A stretch of 24,648 bases of DNA from a virus: the IMG/VR virus record IMGVR_UViG_3300037584_001021, positions 1 to 24,648 of that record; one strand, written 5' to 3'. A model generated the notes under the pieces. It was not told the origin of the DNA. It ran no database searches and saw only the letters and a program-made list of their open reading frames with translations. A program made the translations under genes and the position numbers. Shown here in pieces: positions 5,391-24,648 of the stretch; the stretch's first letter is position 1, and the number at the start of each line of letters is the position of its first letter.

Positions 5391-5869
5391 AACTCCCCAG
5401 TTTTCATAGCTTCAGATAATCGTACTGCACGATTACCTACTTGATTTGCCCATCTTGAATCAAGCATTTCATCACAAGCTAAAGGATAGTTTACTTTTTC
5501 TATAGCCATCCACATGTTTTTAAATTGCATAAGACGAGGAACACCCATGTTAAATGCCATGTCAACAAGTACCATCTGTCTAACATCAGTCAGTTGGTTT
5601 ACAATTGATTTGTTAGCAAGTAATTCTTTTTCTACGATAGCTATGTCATTCATACAGAGATAATATGCTTCTTCTTCTGTAAGACCTTTCTCGTAGATAT
5701 CTTCTATAGTTTTATTTATAAACAGTAGCTCTCCATCCGTAATACCTCTGTCTTCTAAATTTCTACCGATGCCTACCGTATCTATGCCAAGATGATCTTG
5801 ATAAACAGTAAGAACTATACCCTCGTGTAAAGCTATCATCTTTACTAGTTCATCACGATCATATTTCAT
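5387..5869 (-). CDS. Endolysin, T4-type lysozyme (GH24 muramidase)
   Basis: This 160-residue protein cuts the glycan strands of peptidoglycan at the end of infection. The T4 lysozyme catalytic triad is visible with its normal spacing: Glu16 (LHEG), Asp25 (YQDHLG) and Thr31 (DTVGIG), matching Glu11, Asp20 and Thr26 of T4. Length is normal for the family. There is no signal peptide, so release should depend on a holin, and a holin-like gene lies about 1 kb upstream in the same operon. AAGGA stands 7 bases before the ATG, which overlaps the preceding stop as ATGA. This is one of the firmest calls in the window. Confidence 0.95.
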   Translation of the reverse strand: MKYDRDELVKMIALHEGIVLTVYQDHLGIDTVGIGRNLEDRGITDGELLFINKTIEDIYEKGLTEEEAYYLCMNDIAIVEKELLANKSIVNQLTDVRQMVLVDMAFNMGVPRLMQFKNMWMAIEKVNYPLACDEMLDSRWANQVGNRAVRLSEAMKTGEL

Positions 5870-6096
5870 GCTTTTTTCCTTGTCGTCTTACGTTTTCTAC
5901 CCGATGCAGTAACAGACCATTTAACTGCTTTAGGTCCTGTTTTCTTTTTGGCTTCAGCTTTAGTTATCTTGCCTGCAACTTTCTTTGGTCTACATGCAGG
6001 ATATGGTCGTGTTTTCTTTTCTTTGCCAGAACGACCACATTTCTTGCCCGTCTTAACATCTCGCCAATCTTCTTTAAACCATTTGGTTAGGCTCAT
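5866..6096 (-). CDS. Small basic protein, DUF5872-like
   Basis: The frame opens at 6138, but I start at the ATG at 6096. The product then begins MSLTKWFKEDWRDVKTGKKC, the form I know from related small phage proteins, and the ATG overlaps the stop of the upstream gene as ATGA. The 76-residue product is very rich in Lys and Arg. Its core is a Trp-Phe-Lys-Glu-Asp-Trp stretch followed by Cys-Gly-Arg and Tyr-Pro-Ala-Cys-Arg-Pro. The family name is from memory. The function is unknown; the charge suggests nucleic-acid or membrane contact. Confidence 0.7.
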   Translation of the reverse strand: MSLTKWFKEDWRDVKTGKKCGRSGKEKKTRPYPACRPKKVAGKITKAEAKKKTGPKAVKWSVTASGRKRKTTRKKA

Positions 6097-6263
6097 GCGT
6101 ATCCACCACCACGTTTCTTGTAGGTACGCACAAGCCATGCGTTTGCATATGCACTAGGATAGACCTTAAATTTCTTTTTTGCTTCTGATTTTACTCTAGA
6201 ATACAATGAAGGATTTGTTGGTTTAGAGCCACTTTTCTTTTTAGTTTTCTTTTTAACTGCCAT
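6093..6263 (-). CDS. 56-residue basic protein (YPSAYAN motif)
   Basis: This short gene codes for a protein starting MAVKKKTKKKSGSKP with a C-terminal core (SLYSRVKSEAKKKF, KVYPSAYANAWLV, YKKRGGGY). I recognise that core as a recurrent motif in small marine phage proteins. A weak AAAGG ribosome site precedes the ATG. Its stop overlaps the next start (ATGA). The lysine run at the N-terminus and aromatic C-terminus resemble the neighbour at 5866-6096, so the two may be a functional pair. No function is known to me. Confidence 0.7.
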   Translation of the reverse strand: MAVKKKTKKKSGSKPTNPSLYSRVKSEAKKKFKVYPSAYANAWLVRTYKKRGGGYA

Positions 6264-6264
6264 G

Positions 6265-6441
6265 TTACGCCTTTGCTTTCTTTGCTTTGGCTTGTGCTGT
6301 TTTAGATAAGTCTTTCATGTGGAACAAAGCTTTACTTGATTTTGTATGGTTTTTACCACTGTGCAAAGTGCCATCCTTCATCTTGTGTGTTGCACCTTTG
6401 TACAACGTTCCATTCTTTAAATAGTGTTTTACGCCTTTCAT
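6265..6441 (-). CDS. 58-residue basic protein (GVKHYLKNG motif)
   Basis: The product reads MKGVKHYLKNGTLYKG, then a His/Lys/Thr-rich centre and an Ala/Lys tail (DLSKTAQAKAKKAKA). I recognise similar sequences as small uncharacterised proteins of marine phages. The start overlaps the holin-like gene's stop as TAATG. It is one of three consecutive tiny, strongly basic proteins between the holin-like gene and the lysozyme. Function unknown. Confidence 0.7.
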   Translation of the reverse strand: MKGVKHYLKNGTLYKGATHKMKDGTLHSGKNHTKSSKALFHMKDLSKTAQAKAKKAKA

Positions 6442-6833
6442 TATTTCTTCCCCATTAGTTTCATTGCTTGTCCTACACCTTTAATTCCAAATGAGCTACT
6501 TACAGCTATAAATAAAAGGTACTGATACCAATCAGGCAGAGTATTGAGTACTTCAAAGCCTGTTCTTACGTATTCTGTCATACTAGGTATGAATACTAAA
6601 ATTGCTGGAGCAAGGAGGACAACTAAAGCAAATTCATCTTTCCAACTTGCATCTGTGGCATCAGCCATAGACTTTTCCCACGCTACCTCGCCTGTTGCTA
6701 CTTTCTCTGCAACAACTGCTTTAGCTCTAGCTTGTGCTACTTTAGCTTGACCGTCAGCCTTCACTTTTTCTACCTTGCTGTTCATCCAAGAACCTGCAAG
6801 ATTGGCTATAGGTCCTATTAACGCTGTGAGCAT
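6441..6833 (-). CDS. Putative holin, 3-TM-holin-like
   Basis: Two in-frame ATGs lie six bases apart at 6839 and 6833. AAGGG directly abuts the first but stands six bases before the second, so I start at 6833 (130 residues). An Ala/Lys-rich helical region (about residues 20-60) leads to the sequence ASWKDEF, then two hydrophobic segments (FALVVLLAPAILVFIP and YLLFIAVSSSFGIKGVG) and a short basic end. The layout resembles the three-TM holin family of Gram-negative phages, in which the Trp-Lys-Asp-Glu stretch precedes the membrane part. It would open the inner membrane for the lysozyme. A structural role is possible but less likely. Confidence 0.6.
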   Translation of the reverse strand: MLTALIGPIANLAGSWMNSKVEKVKADGQAKVAQARAKAVVAEKVATGEVAWEKSMADATDASWKDEFALVVLLAPAILVFIPSMTEYVRTGFEVLNTLPDWYQYLLFIAVSSSFGIKGVGQAMKLMGKK

Positions 6834-6964
6834 GTGCATCCCTTTTTAGTAAACCTACTGTCAATCCACACTTTACCGTAGTACAGAATAAATAACCACG
6901 CAGTAAACAACGCACCTTCTAAGTACGATAAATCATTCCACGCATCTAATACCATATTCTCCAT
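6818..6964 (-). CDS. 48-residue membrane peptide upstream of holin
   Basis: The ATG at 6964 has a good ribosome site (AAGGGAG, 7 bases upstream). The product starts MENMVLDAWNDLSYLEGALF and has one hydrophobic segment (ALFTAWLFILYYGKVWI), then a basic, cysteine-containing tail. It overlaps the holin-like gene by 16 bases and its own start overlaps the previous stop (TGATG). A one-segment peptide coupled to a holin could be a partner or antiholin, but that is inferred only from position. Confidence 0.6.
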   Translation of the reverse strand: MENMVLDAWNDLSYLEGALFTAWLFILYYGKVWIDSRFTKKGCTCSQR

Positions 6965-7071
6965 CAAATTCTCCCTTGTGACTTATGTAACTGTTTTACG
7001 TATTGTCTGTAGAATTTATTGCTTATTTTGTTTAATATCTTAAACATTGTAAAATTAATTGTTGCTAACAT
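6964..7071 (-). CDS. Possible 35-residue (or 27-residue) basic peptide
   Basis: The ATG at 7071 gives 35 residues (MLATINFTMFKILNKISNKF and onward, ending HKSQGRI); an ATG at 7047 would give 27. The stop TGA shares bases with the next ATG (TGATG), and the start overlaps the preceding stop by seven bases, so it fits the chain of coupled genes. The ribosome site is weak. The evidence is packing and lack of any other content in this stretch; it may not be translated. Confidence 0.4.
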   Translation of the reverse strand: MLATINFTMFKILNKISNKFYRQYVKQLHKSQGRI

Positions 7072-7352
7072 TTCCATCTTCTTCTTGCCTGCCTTAAACG
7101 ACTGTTCGGGTCTTTTGCCGCTTTAGGAAACTTTTTCATTTGTCCTGCACTTCTTGCACAATAGGACTTTCTACGTTTGGCAGCCTTGCTACCTTTCTTT
7201 ACTTTACCTGTAACTGCTGTCTTAAGCTTTGATCCGGGATTATCCCTTCTGTACTTAGCTACACCTTTTTTAGTCATACCTGCACCCGACTTAGTTGGGC
7301 GTTTATGACCACCTTTGATGGTGTGACCTTTCATTGTACCTTTTTCAGACAT
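7065..7352 (-). CDS. Small basic protein with conserved C-terminal ARR-WKC motif
   Basis: A 95-residue, very basic protein. The N-terminal half is Gly/Lys-rich (GTMKGHTIKGGHKRP). The C-terminal part (KRRKSYCARSAGQMKKFPKA, then DPNSRLRQARRRWKC) is a short conserved domain I have seen in many phage and some giant-virus proteins, named DUF6321 if memory is right. Cysteines near residue 66 and at the last residue could bind metal or form a disulfide. GAGGT lies before the ATG. Its place just after the decoration-type gene suggests a DNA-packing or minor head protein, but there is no direct evidence. Confidence 0.7.
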   Translation of the reverse strand: MSEKGTMKGHTIKGGHKRPTKSGAGMTKKGVAKYRRDNPGSKLKTAVTGKVKKGSKAAKRRKSYCARSAGQMKKFPKAAKDPNSRLRQARRRWKC

Positions 7353-7873: not shown

Positions 7874-8851
7874 TTACGCAAAATCTATGACGCCACGAAC
7901 TATTGCTTCTGGTCTTAAAACTTTTCTACCAAAAACGTGTAGTCCTCTAACGACATCAGAGAATGATTCAGTTGAACGTACCACTTCAGTCTTTGCGATG
8001 TGAGACGCTGTAGAAGTACTAGAGATATGTCCTGCCATGATAACGTTCTCAGAAGCGTCTGTAGCGACACCTGATAATGTTACTTGGTCAGTACCTGCTG
8101 TACTATTTAACGCAGTAGACTTGTAGCATCTAAATCCTGCAAGTGTACCCGGAGTTGCAAGTCCGTTTCTTAGGTTTGAAGACGCATCGCCAGTTACCTG
8201 TACTTCTGCCATCTTGTTACCTGCTTGAAACATCTTCTCGTAGAAGATCGGAGGAGCAACAAACCATCTGTTCTCTTCTGGTACAGACTGATCATCAAGC
8301 ACTCTAGCCATTAATAGCATGAGGTTGATACCTGCATCATCTGTTTCTACGTTAATAGGAGCAGATGCTGTACCTAAAGCTGAATTAGTAGTTGTTAATC
8401 CACCTGATAAACTTGCATCGTCAGCACCAGCAATACCTGCACCGTCTGACATAGCCTGTAGTATGTTGGCATCGAATTTTCTCTTTAGAGCAAAAGCACC
8501 TGAAGAAGTTGCTAATGCTTCAAAGTTGACATGTGAATGTCTTTCTTCGATGTCATCGATTTTAAATGCAAAAGCATTTGCTTGGTCAACGGTCATTGTT
8601 ATCTGATCGTCTGCCAAGTCTTGTGCGTTAACCACAGAACCTCTTGTGTACGCTGACACAGTAAGTGTTGGTTCTTTTATAATGTTAACAGTGTCGCCAA
8701 AGTTTTCAATTTCGCCAGTATAGTCGGTATTCGTAATATCTTCTGCAACCGAAGCTCTACGGAAGAACTTAAGAACTTTTTGGCTAAAAATTGAGGGAGC
8801 AAAGTTACCTGACGGTAAGTTAGCATACCCTGCAGCTGTATCAAAAGCCAT
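7874..8851 (-). CDS. Major capsid protein (HK97-fold type)
   Basis: This 325-residue protein should form the icosahedral shell. The start, MAFDTAAGYANLPSGNFAPS followed by a KVLKFFRRASV stretch, the central DDQITMTVDQANAFAFKIDD and the following E-R-H-S-H are typical of capsid proteins in marine podovirus-like contigs. Length is normal for a capsid protein without a prohead-protease-cleaved N-arm. The ribosome site AAGGA is 7 bases before the ATG. It follows the scaffold gene, as in P22- and T7-like phages. The fold class is inferred from family resemblance. Confidence 0.85.
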   Translation of the reverse strand: MAFDTAAGYANLPSGNFAPSIFSQKVLKFFRRASVAEDITNTDYTGEIENFGDTVNIIKEPTLTVSAYTRGSVVNAQDLADDQITMTVDQANAFAFKIDDIEERHSHVNFEALATSSGAFALKRKFDANILQAMSDGAGIAGADDASLSGGLTTTNSALGTASAPINVETDDAGINLMLLMARVLDDQSVPEENRWFVAPPIFYEKMFQAGNKMAEVQVTGDASSNLRNGLATPGTLAGFRCYKSTALNSTAGTDQVTLSGVATDASENVIMAGHISSTSTASHIAKTEVVRSTESFSDVVRGLHVFGRKVLRPEAIVRGVIDFA

Positions 8852-8880: not shown

Positions 8881-9759
8881 TTATTGAGTTATTCGCCCTT
8901 CTGCTCGTGCTTGATCGATTTCTTTTTCAAGTTTTTCAAACTCCCACGATTTCAGCTTGGCGATGTCTGCCATCTTCCAAATCTTTTTGTTTGCATTTTT
9001 GTCAATCGGAACTTCTCTAGAACTTGGTGTTCTGACTGCTTCAGCCGCAGACGCATTAGATTTGTTAGACTTTGTTTTTAAGCCAGTATCGGCTTTGTAA
9101 AGATCAAGAACTCTGATTGCCCATTTGCTATCAGTATTATTCTTAGTTATACCCTCAGAAATTGAGGTTGGCTGTTCATCAAGCCACAAAAGAAACTTTT
9201 CGTTATTCCTGATATCATTAAAGTCAGGGTGTGCGGCAAGTAATACTTTGTATGCACTTTGAACTTCCATTTCCTTCTCACGACCTTTTATAGTTTCAAG
9301 TTCCTTTTTTAAACTTTCAGATTGTTCTTTAGCTTGCATTGCCGCTACGGTTTGCACTACTGCATACACATCTGGATACTTACCTTTGAACTCTTCTAGT
9401 TCATCTGGACTTTTGGGAAGCTTGATTGAAGGGTCTAAATCCATCTGTTCTGCAGTTGTCTTCAACGCTTCTTTCTCACTTTTCCATTCTTGAAGTTTAT
9501 TGTCATAATGTTTTTTTAAGTCATCATAACGTTTCTTATAATCGTGTTCAGGACTCTCTTCCTGTTTAGTTTCCACAAAACCTTCTTGTTGGGTAGCTTC
9601 TTCTTGAGTGCCAACATCTTCTGCTTTTGCTTCTACTTCATCCTCATCTTCTTTATCAACTTCCTCTCGGTATTTGTTTTTATAAAGATTTGGATTATTT
9701 ATTACTCCAAAGGAGTCATTGGGTTTAAATGCTCTTGCACCTTTTACTTGTTTTGCCAT
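8881..9759 (-). CDS. Capsid scaffolding protein
   Basis: A 292-residue, highly charged, mostly helical protein directly before the capsid gene. Residues 33-75 are very acidic (KEDEDEVEAKAEDVGTQEEA). Predicted coiled coil follows (about 76-110 and 140-170). A basic region near residues 225-265 and a short C-terminal helix follow; in other phages the scaffold C-terminus binds the capsid. It would direct procapsid assembly and then leave. The ATG has GAGGT nearby and lies 19 bases after an unusual tandem-hairpin element (9779-9843). Confidence 0.8.
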   Translation of the reverse strand: MAKQVKGARAFKPNDSFGVINNPNLYKNKYREEVDKEDEDEVEAKAEDVGTQEEATQQEGFVETKQEESPEHDYKKRYDDLKKHYDNKLQEWKSEKEALKTTAEQMDLDPSIKLPKSPDELEEFKGKYPDVYAVVQTVAAMQAKEQSESLKKELETIKGREKEMEVQSAYKVLLAAHPDFNDIRNNEKFLLWLDEQPTSISEGITKNNTDSKWAIRVLDLYKADTGLKTKSNKSNASAAEAVRTPSSREVPIDKNANKKIWKMADIAKLKSWEFEKLEKEIDQARAEGRITQ

Positions 9760-9778
9760 TGTATTTACCTCATTTATT

Positions 9779-9843
9779 GCAGTGCCACATGGCTGTGGGT
9801 AGCTGCTTCGGATGTCAGGGCCAGATATTACTGGGTAGCTGAC
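9779..9843 (-). promoter_or_regulatory. Tandem-hairpin RNA element in the scaffold gene leader
   Basis: Two consecutive minus-strand hairpins share one architecture. Hairpin 1 has outer stem 9839-9843 with 9814-9818, inner stem 9831-9834 with 9821-9824, and loop 9825-9830. Hairpin 2 has outer stem 9803-9806 with 9779-9782, inner stem 9794-9798 with 9785-9789, and loop 9790-9793. In both, the left side of the internal loop is CTAC and the right side is two bases (CC or CA). A seven-base linker, ATCCGAA, joins them. The 10-base direct repeat CAGCTACCCA (9832-9841 and 9796-9805) comes from this shared design. The element is visibly richer in G and C than its surroundings. Confidence 0.6.
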
Positions 9844-9849
9844 GAATTC

Positions 9850-12147
9850 TTATCTGAACGCAGGTCTTGCTCCACCTGTTTCATATGCACTTCCCCTACC
9901 TAAGAATGATCCACCTGTTGATTCAGGTATTTTTCTTGGAGGTTGAATGTCATCATTGTTTACACTAACAAAACTTTCTTCTACTTGAGTAGGCGTTTCA
10001 TCAGCTAGTTTAAAATCTTTTGGTTTGTAATATATATGTGCAAAAACTTTATTTTTAGGATTTACAGTTCTGCCTGTTTCTATATACTCACCAGATTGTA
10101 CTTTAGATTTAAAATCTTTTGCTTCCGATGAAGTAGGATTTTTAAAAAATAAAGCACCTTTTGTAAAATCTTTTCTAGAACCTGCCACTATGTCTTCTGC
10201 AATATTACGTACTTTTAAATACCTGTCTTCATTCTGTTTAAATCTTTTTAAAGTGTTTCTAAATTTTGTTGGTTCTAAAGCATTAAATTGAAATATTTTA
10301 TTTTTACCATAAGTTTTCTTGCTAAGTTCTTCGGCTAAAGAATTTCCAAAATCTTTGTACCCTTCTGCCATTGCTCTGTTCCTGAACACATGACCTACGC
10401 CTTCTAGTCCTTCATCTCCAAGAACATCTGCTTCACCTTCCATAGCTATAGCTAAAGCATCTTCTAAAGGGAGATTATTAAGTATTTTATCTATTTCTTT
10501 TCTGGCTTCTTCTGGAGAAGAATAAAAATCTTTAAACTTAACATTTTTTATAGTAACACCAAACTCATCTTCTGTGTTACCACCTTCTTGCATACCTATA
10601 AAACCACCTTCTGCTACCCGTTGAGCTTCAGCATTTTCTTGTCTGCGAGATACTTCTTTTTTGCCACGATTATTTATTTTTTCTAACTTGTCATATCCTA
10701 TAACTTTAGCTATCTCTGGAGGAACAACAACCTCTCCTCGTGATATCATTATATCAACTTGTTCTTTTGTAGGTATGTTAGCTGCTTGAGCAGTCCTATC
10801 AGTTCCTGCATCTATATCAGCTTGAGCTACTATCTCATAAGCCTTGACTAACATGTCTTTGATATCTTCTTTACCTGCAAATTCTACTGCAGGTGCGTTA
10901 ATTACAAATGTTCCTTCAGGTACTTCTTTAGGTATATCATCAGCTATAGTTTGTTGTTCGGTAAATTGATCAGGGGGTCCTCCGATAAATCCCATTTCGC
11001 CAGTAGGTGCTTGTTGTTGTGTAGGATCACCACCCATTTGCATACCTACAGAACCACCTTTTTTGAACATAGAACCATAGTCATCTGCTCCACCACCACC
11101 AGTATTACTATCAAATCCACTATCATTGTTATTATTGTTATCACTATCATTGTTATCATTTGACGAAAATATACCTGTTGCACTGTACTGTGAACCTGCA
11201 GGTGCTGCACCAGTTGGGTTACCTGTTGGACTGTAGGATGAATACCCCACACCTGCTTGGGCTGCATCAGTAACAGTATCAAATGTATCCACACTTATGG
11301 TAGATGGATCACTGATAACACTCGTTGATCCTAACCCACCAAAGGGATCAACAGATTCATTATAAACTTCTTGTTCATCTAACATGTCCATAAACTCTGT
11401 TGGAGAAAGTACACTAACGTCAGGAACATTTACGCCAGTGTAAGTTTTACCAATTCCAAATAGTCCGGGAGTCACACTGACTAAGTCACCTTGATAATAC
11501 CCCTGAGCATATCCGGGAACTCCTTGTGATATTTTATCAGCCACGCTGTAGTGAGTTGACATTAATGAATTAGATACTTGACCTAATAAACCACTTCCCA
11601 TCGCAACATTTTGACCATAAGGGTCTTGCATTGTAGGTCCTATAATTCCTGATATCATTCCAAATGCAGGACTACCAAGAACACTTCCGACATTGGCAGC
11701 CATTTTAGCTGCTTCCATTTGTCCAGCCATAGCTAAACCTAGTGGTGCTGTACTTACTACTCCTTGTGCTATTGCATCAGTAGAAAATCCTGCAATAGCT
11801 GCACCGACAGGATTTGATTGAGCAAAGTCAGATTTAGCTCTATCTCTCTCTGTTCCAAAAGCTACTTGTCCTGCTGTTTGACCTGCACCTACTCCTGCAA
11901 TGTCCATTGCTTGATTAGCATCGGCTATAGCTTGTGAAGGACCTGTAACAGATACACCTGAAGCTCCTAATCCACCTATGTCTGCTACTTGAGGTCTATC
12001 TTGAGTTTCATTTTCAGAGTTTTCTTGTTCTTCTTTAGATGTCTCTACTTCTATGTTGTTTTCTTGCAAAGCATCTTTAGCTCGTTTTCTATTTCTAGCT
12101 CGACTAAGTAAAAAATCAAATTGTGGATTTCCAGTGCTAAATGCCAT
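9850..12147 (-). CDS. Large virion protein with C-terminal SleB-type cell-wall hydrolase
   Basis: This 765-residue protein has three parts. Residues 1-350 are Ala/Gly/Gln-rich, with several weakly hydrophobic stretches, ending in an Asn/Asp tract (about 327-348). The middle (about 360-520) holds GGSVGMQMGG and a conserved segment (IGYDKLEKINNRGKKEVSRR) that I know from marine phage virion proteins. The C-terminus (about 555-705) resembles the SleB/hydrolase-2 family: LAIAMEGEADVLGDEG with the likely catalytic Glu at 570 or 572, VFRNRA, FQFNA, ALFFKNP and HIYY at 704. Such a domain would let the particle cut peptidoglycan during DNA entry. Its place between portal and scaffold suggests an internal or ejected protein. 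Confidence 0.7.
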   Translation of the reverse strand: MAFSTGNPQFDFLLSRARNRKRAKDALQENNIEVETSKEEQENSENETQDRPQVADIGGLGASGVSVTGPSQAIADANQAMDIAGVGAGQTAGQVAFGTERDRAKSDFAQSNPVGAAIAGFSTDAIAQGVVSTAPLGLAMAGQMEAAKMAANVGSVLGSPAFGMISGIIGPTMQDPYGQNVAMGSGLLGQVSNSLMSTHYSVADKISQGVPGYAQGYYQGDLVSVTPGLFGIGKTYTGVNVPDVSVLSPTEFMDMLDEQEVYNESVDPFGGLGSTSVISDPSTISVDTFDTVTDAAQAGVGYSSYSPTGNPTGAAPAGSQYSATGIFSSNDNNDSDNNNNNDSGFDSNTGGGGADDYGSMFKKGGSVGMQMGGDPTQQQAPTGEMGFIGGPPDQFTEQQTIADDIPKEVPEGTFVINAPAVEFAGKEDIKDMLVKAYEIVAQADIDAGTDRTAQAANIPTKEQVDIMISRGEVVVPPEIAKVIGYDKLEKINNRGKKEVSRRQENAEAQRVAEGGFIGMQEGGNTEDEFGVTIKNVKFKDFYSSPEEARKEIDKILNNLPLEDALAIAMEGEADVLGDEGLEGVGHVFRNRAMAEGYKDFGNSLAEELSKKTYGKNKIFQFNALEPTKFRNTLKRFKQNEDRYLKVRNIAEDIVAGSRKDFTKGALFFKNPTSSEAKDFKSKVQSGEYIETGRTVNPKNKVFAHIYYKPKDFKLADETPTQVEESFVSVNNDDIQPPRKIPESTGGSFLGRGSAYETGGARPAFR

Positions 12148-24223: not shown

Positions 24224-24648
24224 TCAGGCTAATTCCCTACCAAATATAAATTCGCTTGTCAAACTCTTTAGAATACATTTGATAGTTTCATTGTTCCAAC
24301 CATTGCCAAGCATCTTGTAACCTTGTGAGTTACTAACAGACTTACAATAGTCATCAGGTAAAGTTTGCAACCTACAACATTCCTTAACAGTAAGCTTTCG
24401 CCAATGTAGTTTGTGTTCACCATAAGCGTCAGGGTATCTACCTTTAGGTAAAGGTGAAACTACTGTATCTTTAGTTAAGGTAGATAGGCATCGTGACTTA
24501 TCTGTGTCGGATACCTCAAGAGTTTGAACTATAGGTAGGCTAGTGTCATCATCTTTACGTACACCATTGCTATCTAATCTTCTACCTGTGATTGAAGCAG
24601 AGTTACAGAGTATCTTAGGTTCTCTGTGTCCACCTTGCATAGTAGTTA
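24224..24648 (-). CDS. DNA cytosine-C5 methyltransferase, C-terminal part (5' end outside window)
   Basis: The frame is open to the right edge, so this is the end of a longer gene; the first ATG in view (24640) need not be the start. The visible region has the last two conserved motifs of cytosine-C5 methyltransferases: motif IX in WRKLTVKECCRLQTLPDDY and motif X in YKMLGNGWNNETI, which complete the SAM-binding fold. The catalytic Pro-Cys motif and most of the target-recognition part lie outside. The enzyme would methylate phage DNA, probably for protection from restriction. No cognate nuclease is visible. Confidence 0.85.
   Translation of the reverse strand, partial: TTMQGGHREPKILCNSASITGRRLDSNGVRKDDDTSLPIVQTLEVSDTDKSRCLSTLTKDTVVSPLPKGRYPDAYGEHKLHWRKLTVKECCRLQTLPDDYCKSVSNSQGYKMLGNGWNNETIKCILKSLTSEFIFGRELA

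Follow-up and report, generated by a model that had tools for sequence, protein, structure and literature searches.

Scaffold-to-coat matching in double-stranded DNA phages is known genetically from P22, in which the scaffold protein represses its own synthesis after transcription. We are not aware of any defined RNA site for this autoregulation. Hairpin operators are bound by the coat proteins of RNA phages such as MS2, Qbeta and PP7, and translational repression close to the Shine-Dalgarno (SD) sequence, autogenous in several cases, is described for T4 RegA, gp32 and the leaders of ribosomal-protein genes. Tandem hairpins occur in the put RNA of phage HK022, where they stand about 1 nt apart in a promoter-proximal part of the early operon, and in the guanidine-II (mini-ykkC) riboswitch, in which both hairpins carry conserved ACGR apical loops.

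Here, we analysed a two-hairpin element on the minus strand of a 24.6-kb record of a podovirus-type phage (IMG/VR record IMGVR_UViG_3300037584_001021; its whole length of 24,648 nucleotides is referred to as the window). It resembles the MS2, Qbeta and PP7 operators, to which a virion protein binds, in placing hairpins with conserved unpaired bases at the ribosome-binding site of a phage gene. However, those operators belong to single-stranded RNA phages, consist of one hairpin with a bulged A and bind other proteins, whereas here two modules with a 4x2 internal loop are present. Like HK022 put, it forms a tandem pair of internally bulged hairpins within a phage transcript, but put is located close to early promoters and modifies RNA polymerase; linkers of 5-14 nt in the window clade (longer in other clades), the existence of single and nested forms and a position at the SD of a late structural operon set the element apart from that family. 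The guanidine-II riboswitch is likewise built of two short hairpins, a linker and then the SD, but in our element the apical loops are variable (hairpin 1) or GCCA (hairpin 2), the internal loop is the conserved part, and no Rfam match was obtained. The RNAs and proteins of the T4 and ribosomal-protein systems are unrelated to those considered here.

P22 is similar to the window phage in its gene order (portal, scaffold, coat) and in its P22-like coat, and by analogy post-transcriptional control of the scaffold level would be expected here as well. Nevertheless, only 13 nt separate the portal gene (1) from the scaffold gene (8) in P22, P22 gave no match to our covariance model R2 (see below), and a homologous leader or RNA site was not found. 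As P22 lacks the module, it is not a homologue, and the mechanism proposed below is an analogy to P22 rather than membership in a common family. The original prediction of a two-copy RNA site with P22 as its parallel thus held for the structured two-copy RNA, while the parallel is confined to function and does not extend to a shared site.

A search of the window and ten diverse loci with the 4227 covariance models of Rfam 15 at curated thresholds returned no match, and nothing overlapped the element in a 401-nt search at an E-value of 10. A paper on HMO-2011-type phages (PMC9038755) contains no text on hairpins or RNA motifs, and the accessible part of a survey of 104 RNAs (PMC2864571) describes no phage scaffold motif. 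The element was not found in the literature searched, which was covered in part, and its novelty rests mainly on the Rfam comparison. We regard it as a new RNA family, the CUAC-module scaffold leader, which would act like an autogenous translational operator.

The element and its genomic context

The scaffold gene, its upstream neighbour and the coat gene lie on the minus strand. The scaffold gene (8881-9759, 292 aa, phrog_13678) sits between the portal and coat genes; a 765-aa gene (9850-12147) separates it from the portal gene, and the major capsid protein (coat) gene (7874-8851, 325 aa, phrog_267) follows downstream in the operon. The window coat shares 54% identity with its counterpart in Pelagibacter phage HTVC033P and about 40% with the coat of Puniceispirillum phage HMO-2011. 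At the DNA level, the window gave only chance matches to annotated phages. The assignment of the 292-aa protein as scaffold is deduced from gene order, predicted shape and weak fold matches: the structure model is helical and coiled-coil with a C-terminal helix-turn-helix, and the fold search gave weak matches to viral capsid-assembly and scaffolding proteins. Domain and fold searches recognised no RNA-binding domain or known fold that would explain RNA binding. phrog_13678 also takes in the scaffolds of HTVC103P, HMO-2011, CRP-3, Rhizobium phage RHph_I3_11 and Vibrio phage CHOED; the RHph_I3_11 protein (L160, 3051-3845) is labelled ‘topoisomerase II domain-containing protein’, apparently a misannotation.

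Elsewhere in the window, residues 563-676 in the C-terminal half of the 765-aa protein weakly match an endolysin-type family (phrog_15649). A cluster of small, very Lys/Arg-rich open reading frames (56-95 aa, 5866-7352) that follows the coat gene downstream possibly encodes nucleic-acid-binding proteins. The first gene, which is tail-fibre-like, contains a 137-nt direct repeat (30-166 and 543-679) with 75% identity.

Both hairpins follow a common plan, an outer stem, CUAC opposite CC or CA, and an inner stem. The upstream copy, H1 (9814-9843), consists of the outer stem GTCAG/CTGAC (9843-9839/9818-9814), CUAC (9838-9835) opposite CC (9820-9819), the inner stem CCAG/CTGG (9834-9831/9824-9821) and the apical loop TAATAT (9830-9825). 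A 7-nt linker (9807-9813, ATCCGAA, AUCCGAA in RNA) leads to the start-proximal copy, H2 (9779-9806), with the outer stem GCAG/CTGC (9806-9803/9782-9779), CUAC (9802-9799) opposite CA (9784-9783), the inner stem CCACA/TGTGG (9798-9794/9789-9785) and the apical loop GCCA (9793-9790). An SD-like GAGGU, assigned from the sequence (9767-9771), follows 7 nt past H2 and stands 7 nt ahead of the scaffold ATG (9759-9757), which is 19 nt from the end of H2. The original prediction of two minus-strand hairpins with CTAC opposite two bases, a 7-nt joint and this distance to the ATG was exact to the base. The stop codon of the 765-aa gene (9852-9850) lies 6 nt ahead of H1, so that the element is intergenic and non-coding. 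A terminator scan found no intrinsic terminator at 9779-9843, where the 3' flank AAUAAAUGAGGU is without a U tract, and a promoter scan found no promoter at the element.

In isolation, the 65 nt fold into both hairpins (-20.9 kcal/mol, z -2.61), a value equalled by 3 of 200 shuffled sequences. The fold of a longer 121-nt context is unremarkable (z -1.11), and single-sequence folding is therefore suggestive only; the decisive support for the element is comparative.

Module structure and covariation

Relatives were gathered via similarity of their coat and scaffold proteins and not via RNA similarity. The module that they share is a helix broken by a 4x2 internal loop, with the consensus RG-CUAC-C / G-C(C/A)-CY. 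We defined the family by an outer stem, N-Y-A-C opposite CC, CA or AC, an inner stem, covarying pairs and a site just ahead of the SD of a phrog_13678 scaffold gene, and the element shows all of these. The window scored 81.8 bits against the covariance model R1, which was built with the window included, and H1 and H2 scored 32.2 bits (E 2.9e-6) and 30.0 bits (E 1.1e-5) against model R2, which was built with both hairpins included.

The covariation analysis relied on alignment A1 with 68 distinct tandem elements, for which the row pattern fixed the core bases and did not require the stems to pair. In this alignment, 97.2% of the stem cells pair compared to 83.5% in shuffles, and 13 of 18 pairs have changed on both sides. 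Doubly changed cells numbered 178 against 47.7 expected, a count inflated by relatedness; the covariation score was 0.425 compared to 0.165 in shuffles and at most 0.077 in slid alignments, a control that preserves relatedness. RNAalifold recovered the identical structure unprompted, and within its 16 predicted pairs G-U type pairs outnumber A-C mismatches by 14 to 2, which indicates that the paired strand is the scaffold-sense mRNA. An alignment of 29 diverse single modules (A3), in which all eight pairs are doubly changed, is supporting only, as its modules were partly picked for pairing.

A scan for the pattern ‘stem, CTAC, stem, loop, stem, two bases, stem’ in 410 related loci (2.5 Mb) gave 504 matches, compared to 28 after shuffling and 59 for the opposite strand. 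The opposing loop was CC or CA in 474 of the 504 matches. CTAC ranked first among all 256 possible 4-mers, with 68 matches against 27 for the runner-up when one locus in eight was scanned. The element is a real, covarying RNA kept by selection on base pairing. Preservation of pairing while bases change had been read from the two stems of the window alone and is borne out by the homologues, among which we looked for stems broken without compensation and for conservation of the stretch as protein and found neither.

The loop bases are near-invariant, while the stems drift. CUAC/CC is by far the commonest loop type in the leaders; CUAC/CA, CCAC/CC, AUAC/AC (CHOED, CRP-738), ACAC/CC (Aeromonas 1233) and GUAC/AC (Slicky01) also occur. 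Hence, the base adjacent to the outer stem and its partner swap among C-C, C-A, A-C and G-C, whereas the A-C ending of NYAC is constant across leader loop types and the opposing two bases are CC or CA, rarely AC.

Modules stand as tandem hairpins, as a back-to-back pair within a single two-fold-symmetric hairpin, or alone, and usually there are two copies. Tandem hairpins characterise the window and HTVC103P clades; in the window clade the linker measures 5-14 nt and mostly ends in CCGAA, CCGGA or CCGAC, while other clades have longer linkers. HMO-2011-type phages have a single hairpin, with the second module placed in inverted orientation atop a shared helix (GG CUAC [5 bp] CC CC..GG CUAC [5 bp] CC CC). 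In 18 such elements, counted by script as were all nested forms, the shared and apical helices pair at 96.6% of positions compared to 86.3% in shuffles (maximum 93.1%), and the shared helix has 5 bp in 16 of them. The CRP-3 and RHph types, read by eye, are back-to-back as well. CRP-2, CRP-9, CRP-235 and Aeromonas 1233 have one recognisable copy, which shows that two copies are not essential. In L159 and related CRP-3-type leaders, UUUGCG just upstream is complementary to CGCAAA within the element and conserved in the clade, possibly as a competing stem.

Across 138 distinct leaders, 9-22 nt separate the end of the last outer stem from the ATG; relative to the SD core, this end lies between 2 nt inside and 7 nt before it, with one case at 10 nt. 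In CRP-345 (L412, 975-1019 and 1000), the annotated scaffold start codon (ATGGCTACG) falls within the RNA hairpin, and the true start is probably downstream of it. An alternative structure in which the CUACC core would pair with the SD, judged by eye, is not general.

These features bear on the question of whether the element acts in RNA processing or stability, as an endonuclease site or a 5'-end stabiliser between the upstream gene and the scaffold gene that sets message levels. Intergenic hairpins within a polycistronic late operon would suit such a role, and some established RNase III sites contain internal loops. However, the helices are interrupted and only 8-11 bp long, the element is locked to the SD, and near-invariant loop bases with drifting stems are the opposite of a duplex-length cue. 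We consider a processing or stability site, which the original prediction had offered as an alternative, unlikely, since the internal-loop bases and not a long duplex are invariant.

A second question concerns the apical loop of H2, in which GCCA (9790-9793) is complementary to UGGC in the start-codon context (9755-9759). GCCA is present in 21 of 23 distinct window-clade elements, where the gene usually starts with AUGGC. HTVC033P and a SAR11 single-cell contig (L548) combine the loop UCCA with the start AUGGA, possibly one compensatory change, not seen in other clades, and L075 has neither the GCCA loop nor the AUGGC start. Such a pattern would suit a protein-free switch, in which the loop pairs with the start context and hides the start codon. 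On the other hand, L150 starts with AUGGC without a GCCA loop, only one independent co-change is seen, and the complementarity is confined to the window and HTVC033P clades, other clades having unrelated loops. Therefore, a protein-free switch is extremely unlikely as the general explanation, and the complementarity may be a clade-specific refinement of the leader.

Distribution and gene specificity

Hundreds of relatives of the window phage carry the element. In the annotated isolates with a phrog_13678 scaffold recovered by tblastn searches, the leaders examined have the module at the SD ahead of the scaffold gene. These are HMO-2011-type phages of SAR11, SAR116 and roseobacter as well as phages of rhizobia (Rhizobium, Sinorhizobium) and, read by eye, of Vibrio, Aeromonas and Pseudoalteromonas. 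Similar sequence at this place in other marine phages, suggested when the element was first noticed, is confirmed by the SAR11, SAR116 and roseobacter scaffold leaders, and the covariance-model search that had been suggested at the same time found modules at scaffold leaders. No R2 match was obtained for the forms in CHOED, Aeromonas 1233, MQM1, CRP-1 and Slicky01, which were identified by eye.

When R2 was run over 24 complete phage genomes and the window, matches with E below 0.02 fell in scaffold leaders only, except for one in HTVC115P. In a set of 72 loci of the HTVC103P type and its relatives, R2 gave 146 matches at E up to 1, of which 144 were of the leader type. We also scanned 2.9 million viral contigs in IMG/VR motif-first, with a DNA pattern and no proteins, which matched at least 120 contigs. 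Among the 120 matches listed, a scaffold-family gene lies immediately downstream in 115; two of the others lie at a contig end, two within a scaffold coding sequence (L464, L479) and one is unrelated. Besides the coding match, L464 and L479 each have two real tandem modules in the leader.

The exception in HTVC115P (L422; HTVC115P record 24555-24583, minus strand) is a module-like hairpin, GGAG AUAC CCAU..AUGG CA CUCC, with 22.7 bits and an E-value of 0.002. It occupies the 3' end of gp41 and stands 16 nt ahead of the gp40 start codon, and thus has leader geometry at a different gene; with one related contig found, it may be due to chance. In one clade, a third module-like match occurs some 120-130 nt into the coding sequence of the scaffold (L546 2206-2233, L547 2209-2233, L464 2005-2029, L479 2799-2823). 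These matches have weak inner stems and fall on Ala-Thr...Ala-Pro codons, and may reflect chance or coding constraint.

The restriction to one structural gene among the matches listed, rather than to metabolic genes, weighs against a small-molecule aptamer. Tandem copies and a conserved internal loop do recall tandem riboswitch aptamers, but only about six unpaired bases are near-invariant and no Rfam riboswitch matched, and we hold a riboswitch, perhaps tandem, to be most improbable. A host protein such as a ribosomal protein or a global RNA-binding regulator could also be the ligand, as leader operators for host RNA-binding proteins are common and the linker of some clades contains GGA. This GGA is not conserved, however, and the module occurs in phages of alpha- and gammaproteobacterial hosts only where the phage scaffold is present, which makes a host ligand very unlikely. 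The element accompanies the scaffold in widely differing hosts and did not turn up with related coats alone, which argues for a phage-encoded partner.

This partner might be the coat or another virion or regulatory protein of the phage, with the same operator logic. Coat relatives co-occur with the element in one operon, and the coat proteins of RNA phages offer a precedent for binding to hairpin operators. Yet the module precedes the scaffold gene and not the coat gene, and related coats exist in hundreds of phages without a phrog_13678 scaffold (361 coat records compared to 27 with scaffold). In bacterial genomes, phage-like contigs from marine MAGs and SAGs with coat relatives do have the module, while the bacterial contigs of distant prophages with coat relatives showed neither a strong scaffold match nor an R2 match. 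A ligand of this kind is therefore doubtful.

A candidate operator for scaffold synthesis

The reading that we prefer, although we see it as evenly poised between right and wrong, is that the element is a cis-acting mRNA operator, and that a phage head protein, most likely the scaffold, binds its two loop modules and so represses scaffold translation. We infer each of its three parts: that a protein binds, that the scaffold is the binder and that binding represses. The scaffold is the most economical ligand, because its family tracks the element and because the P22 scaffold limits its own synthesis. The presence of two copies, sometimes in two-fold symmetry, suggests a dimer or two cooperative sites.

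In such an operator, free, unassembled scaffold would bind both CUAC loops, either as a dimer or at two sites. The bound protein would clamp the hairpins, the 3' stem of which adjoins the SD and in some relatives overlaps it, and the clamped hairpins would block ribosome loading on the scaffold gene. Once procapsids form, the free scaffold would drop and translation would resume, so that scaffold production would be matched to coat. More specifically, the uncatalogued internal-loop motif, in duplicate and either tandem or back-to-back, could be the site at which the scaffold of a double-stranded DNA phage senses its own free concentration, a proposal for which our confidence falls just short of an even chance.

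As the hosts include laboratory-grown Vibrio, Aeromonas, Rhizobium and Sinorhizobium, binding and repression are directly testable. The putative RNA-protein pair is small and could serve as a tool. The element, a compact site with covariation support that goes with a single scaffold family in phages of many different hosts, represents an RNA family that Rfam lacks, in one of the commonest groups of marine phages. If the proposed operator is correct, scaffold autoregulation would have its first defined cis-RNA, and it would operate in an abundant group of ocean phages.
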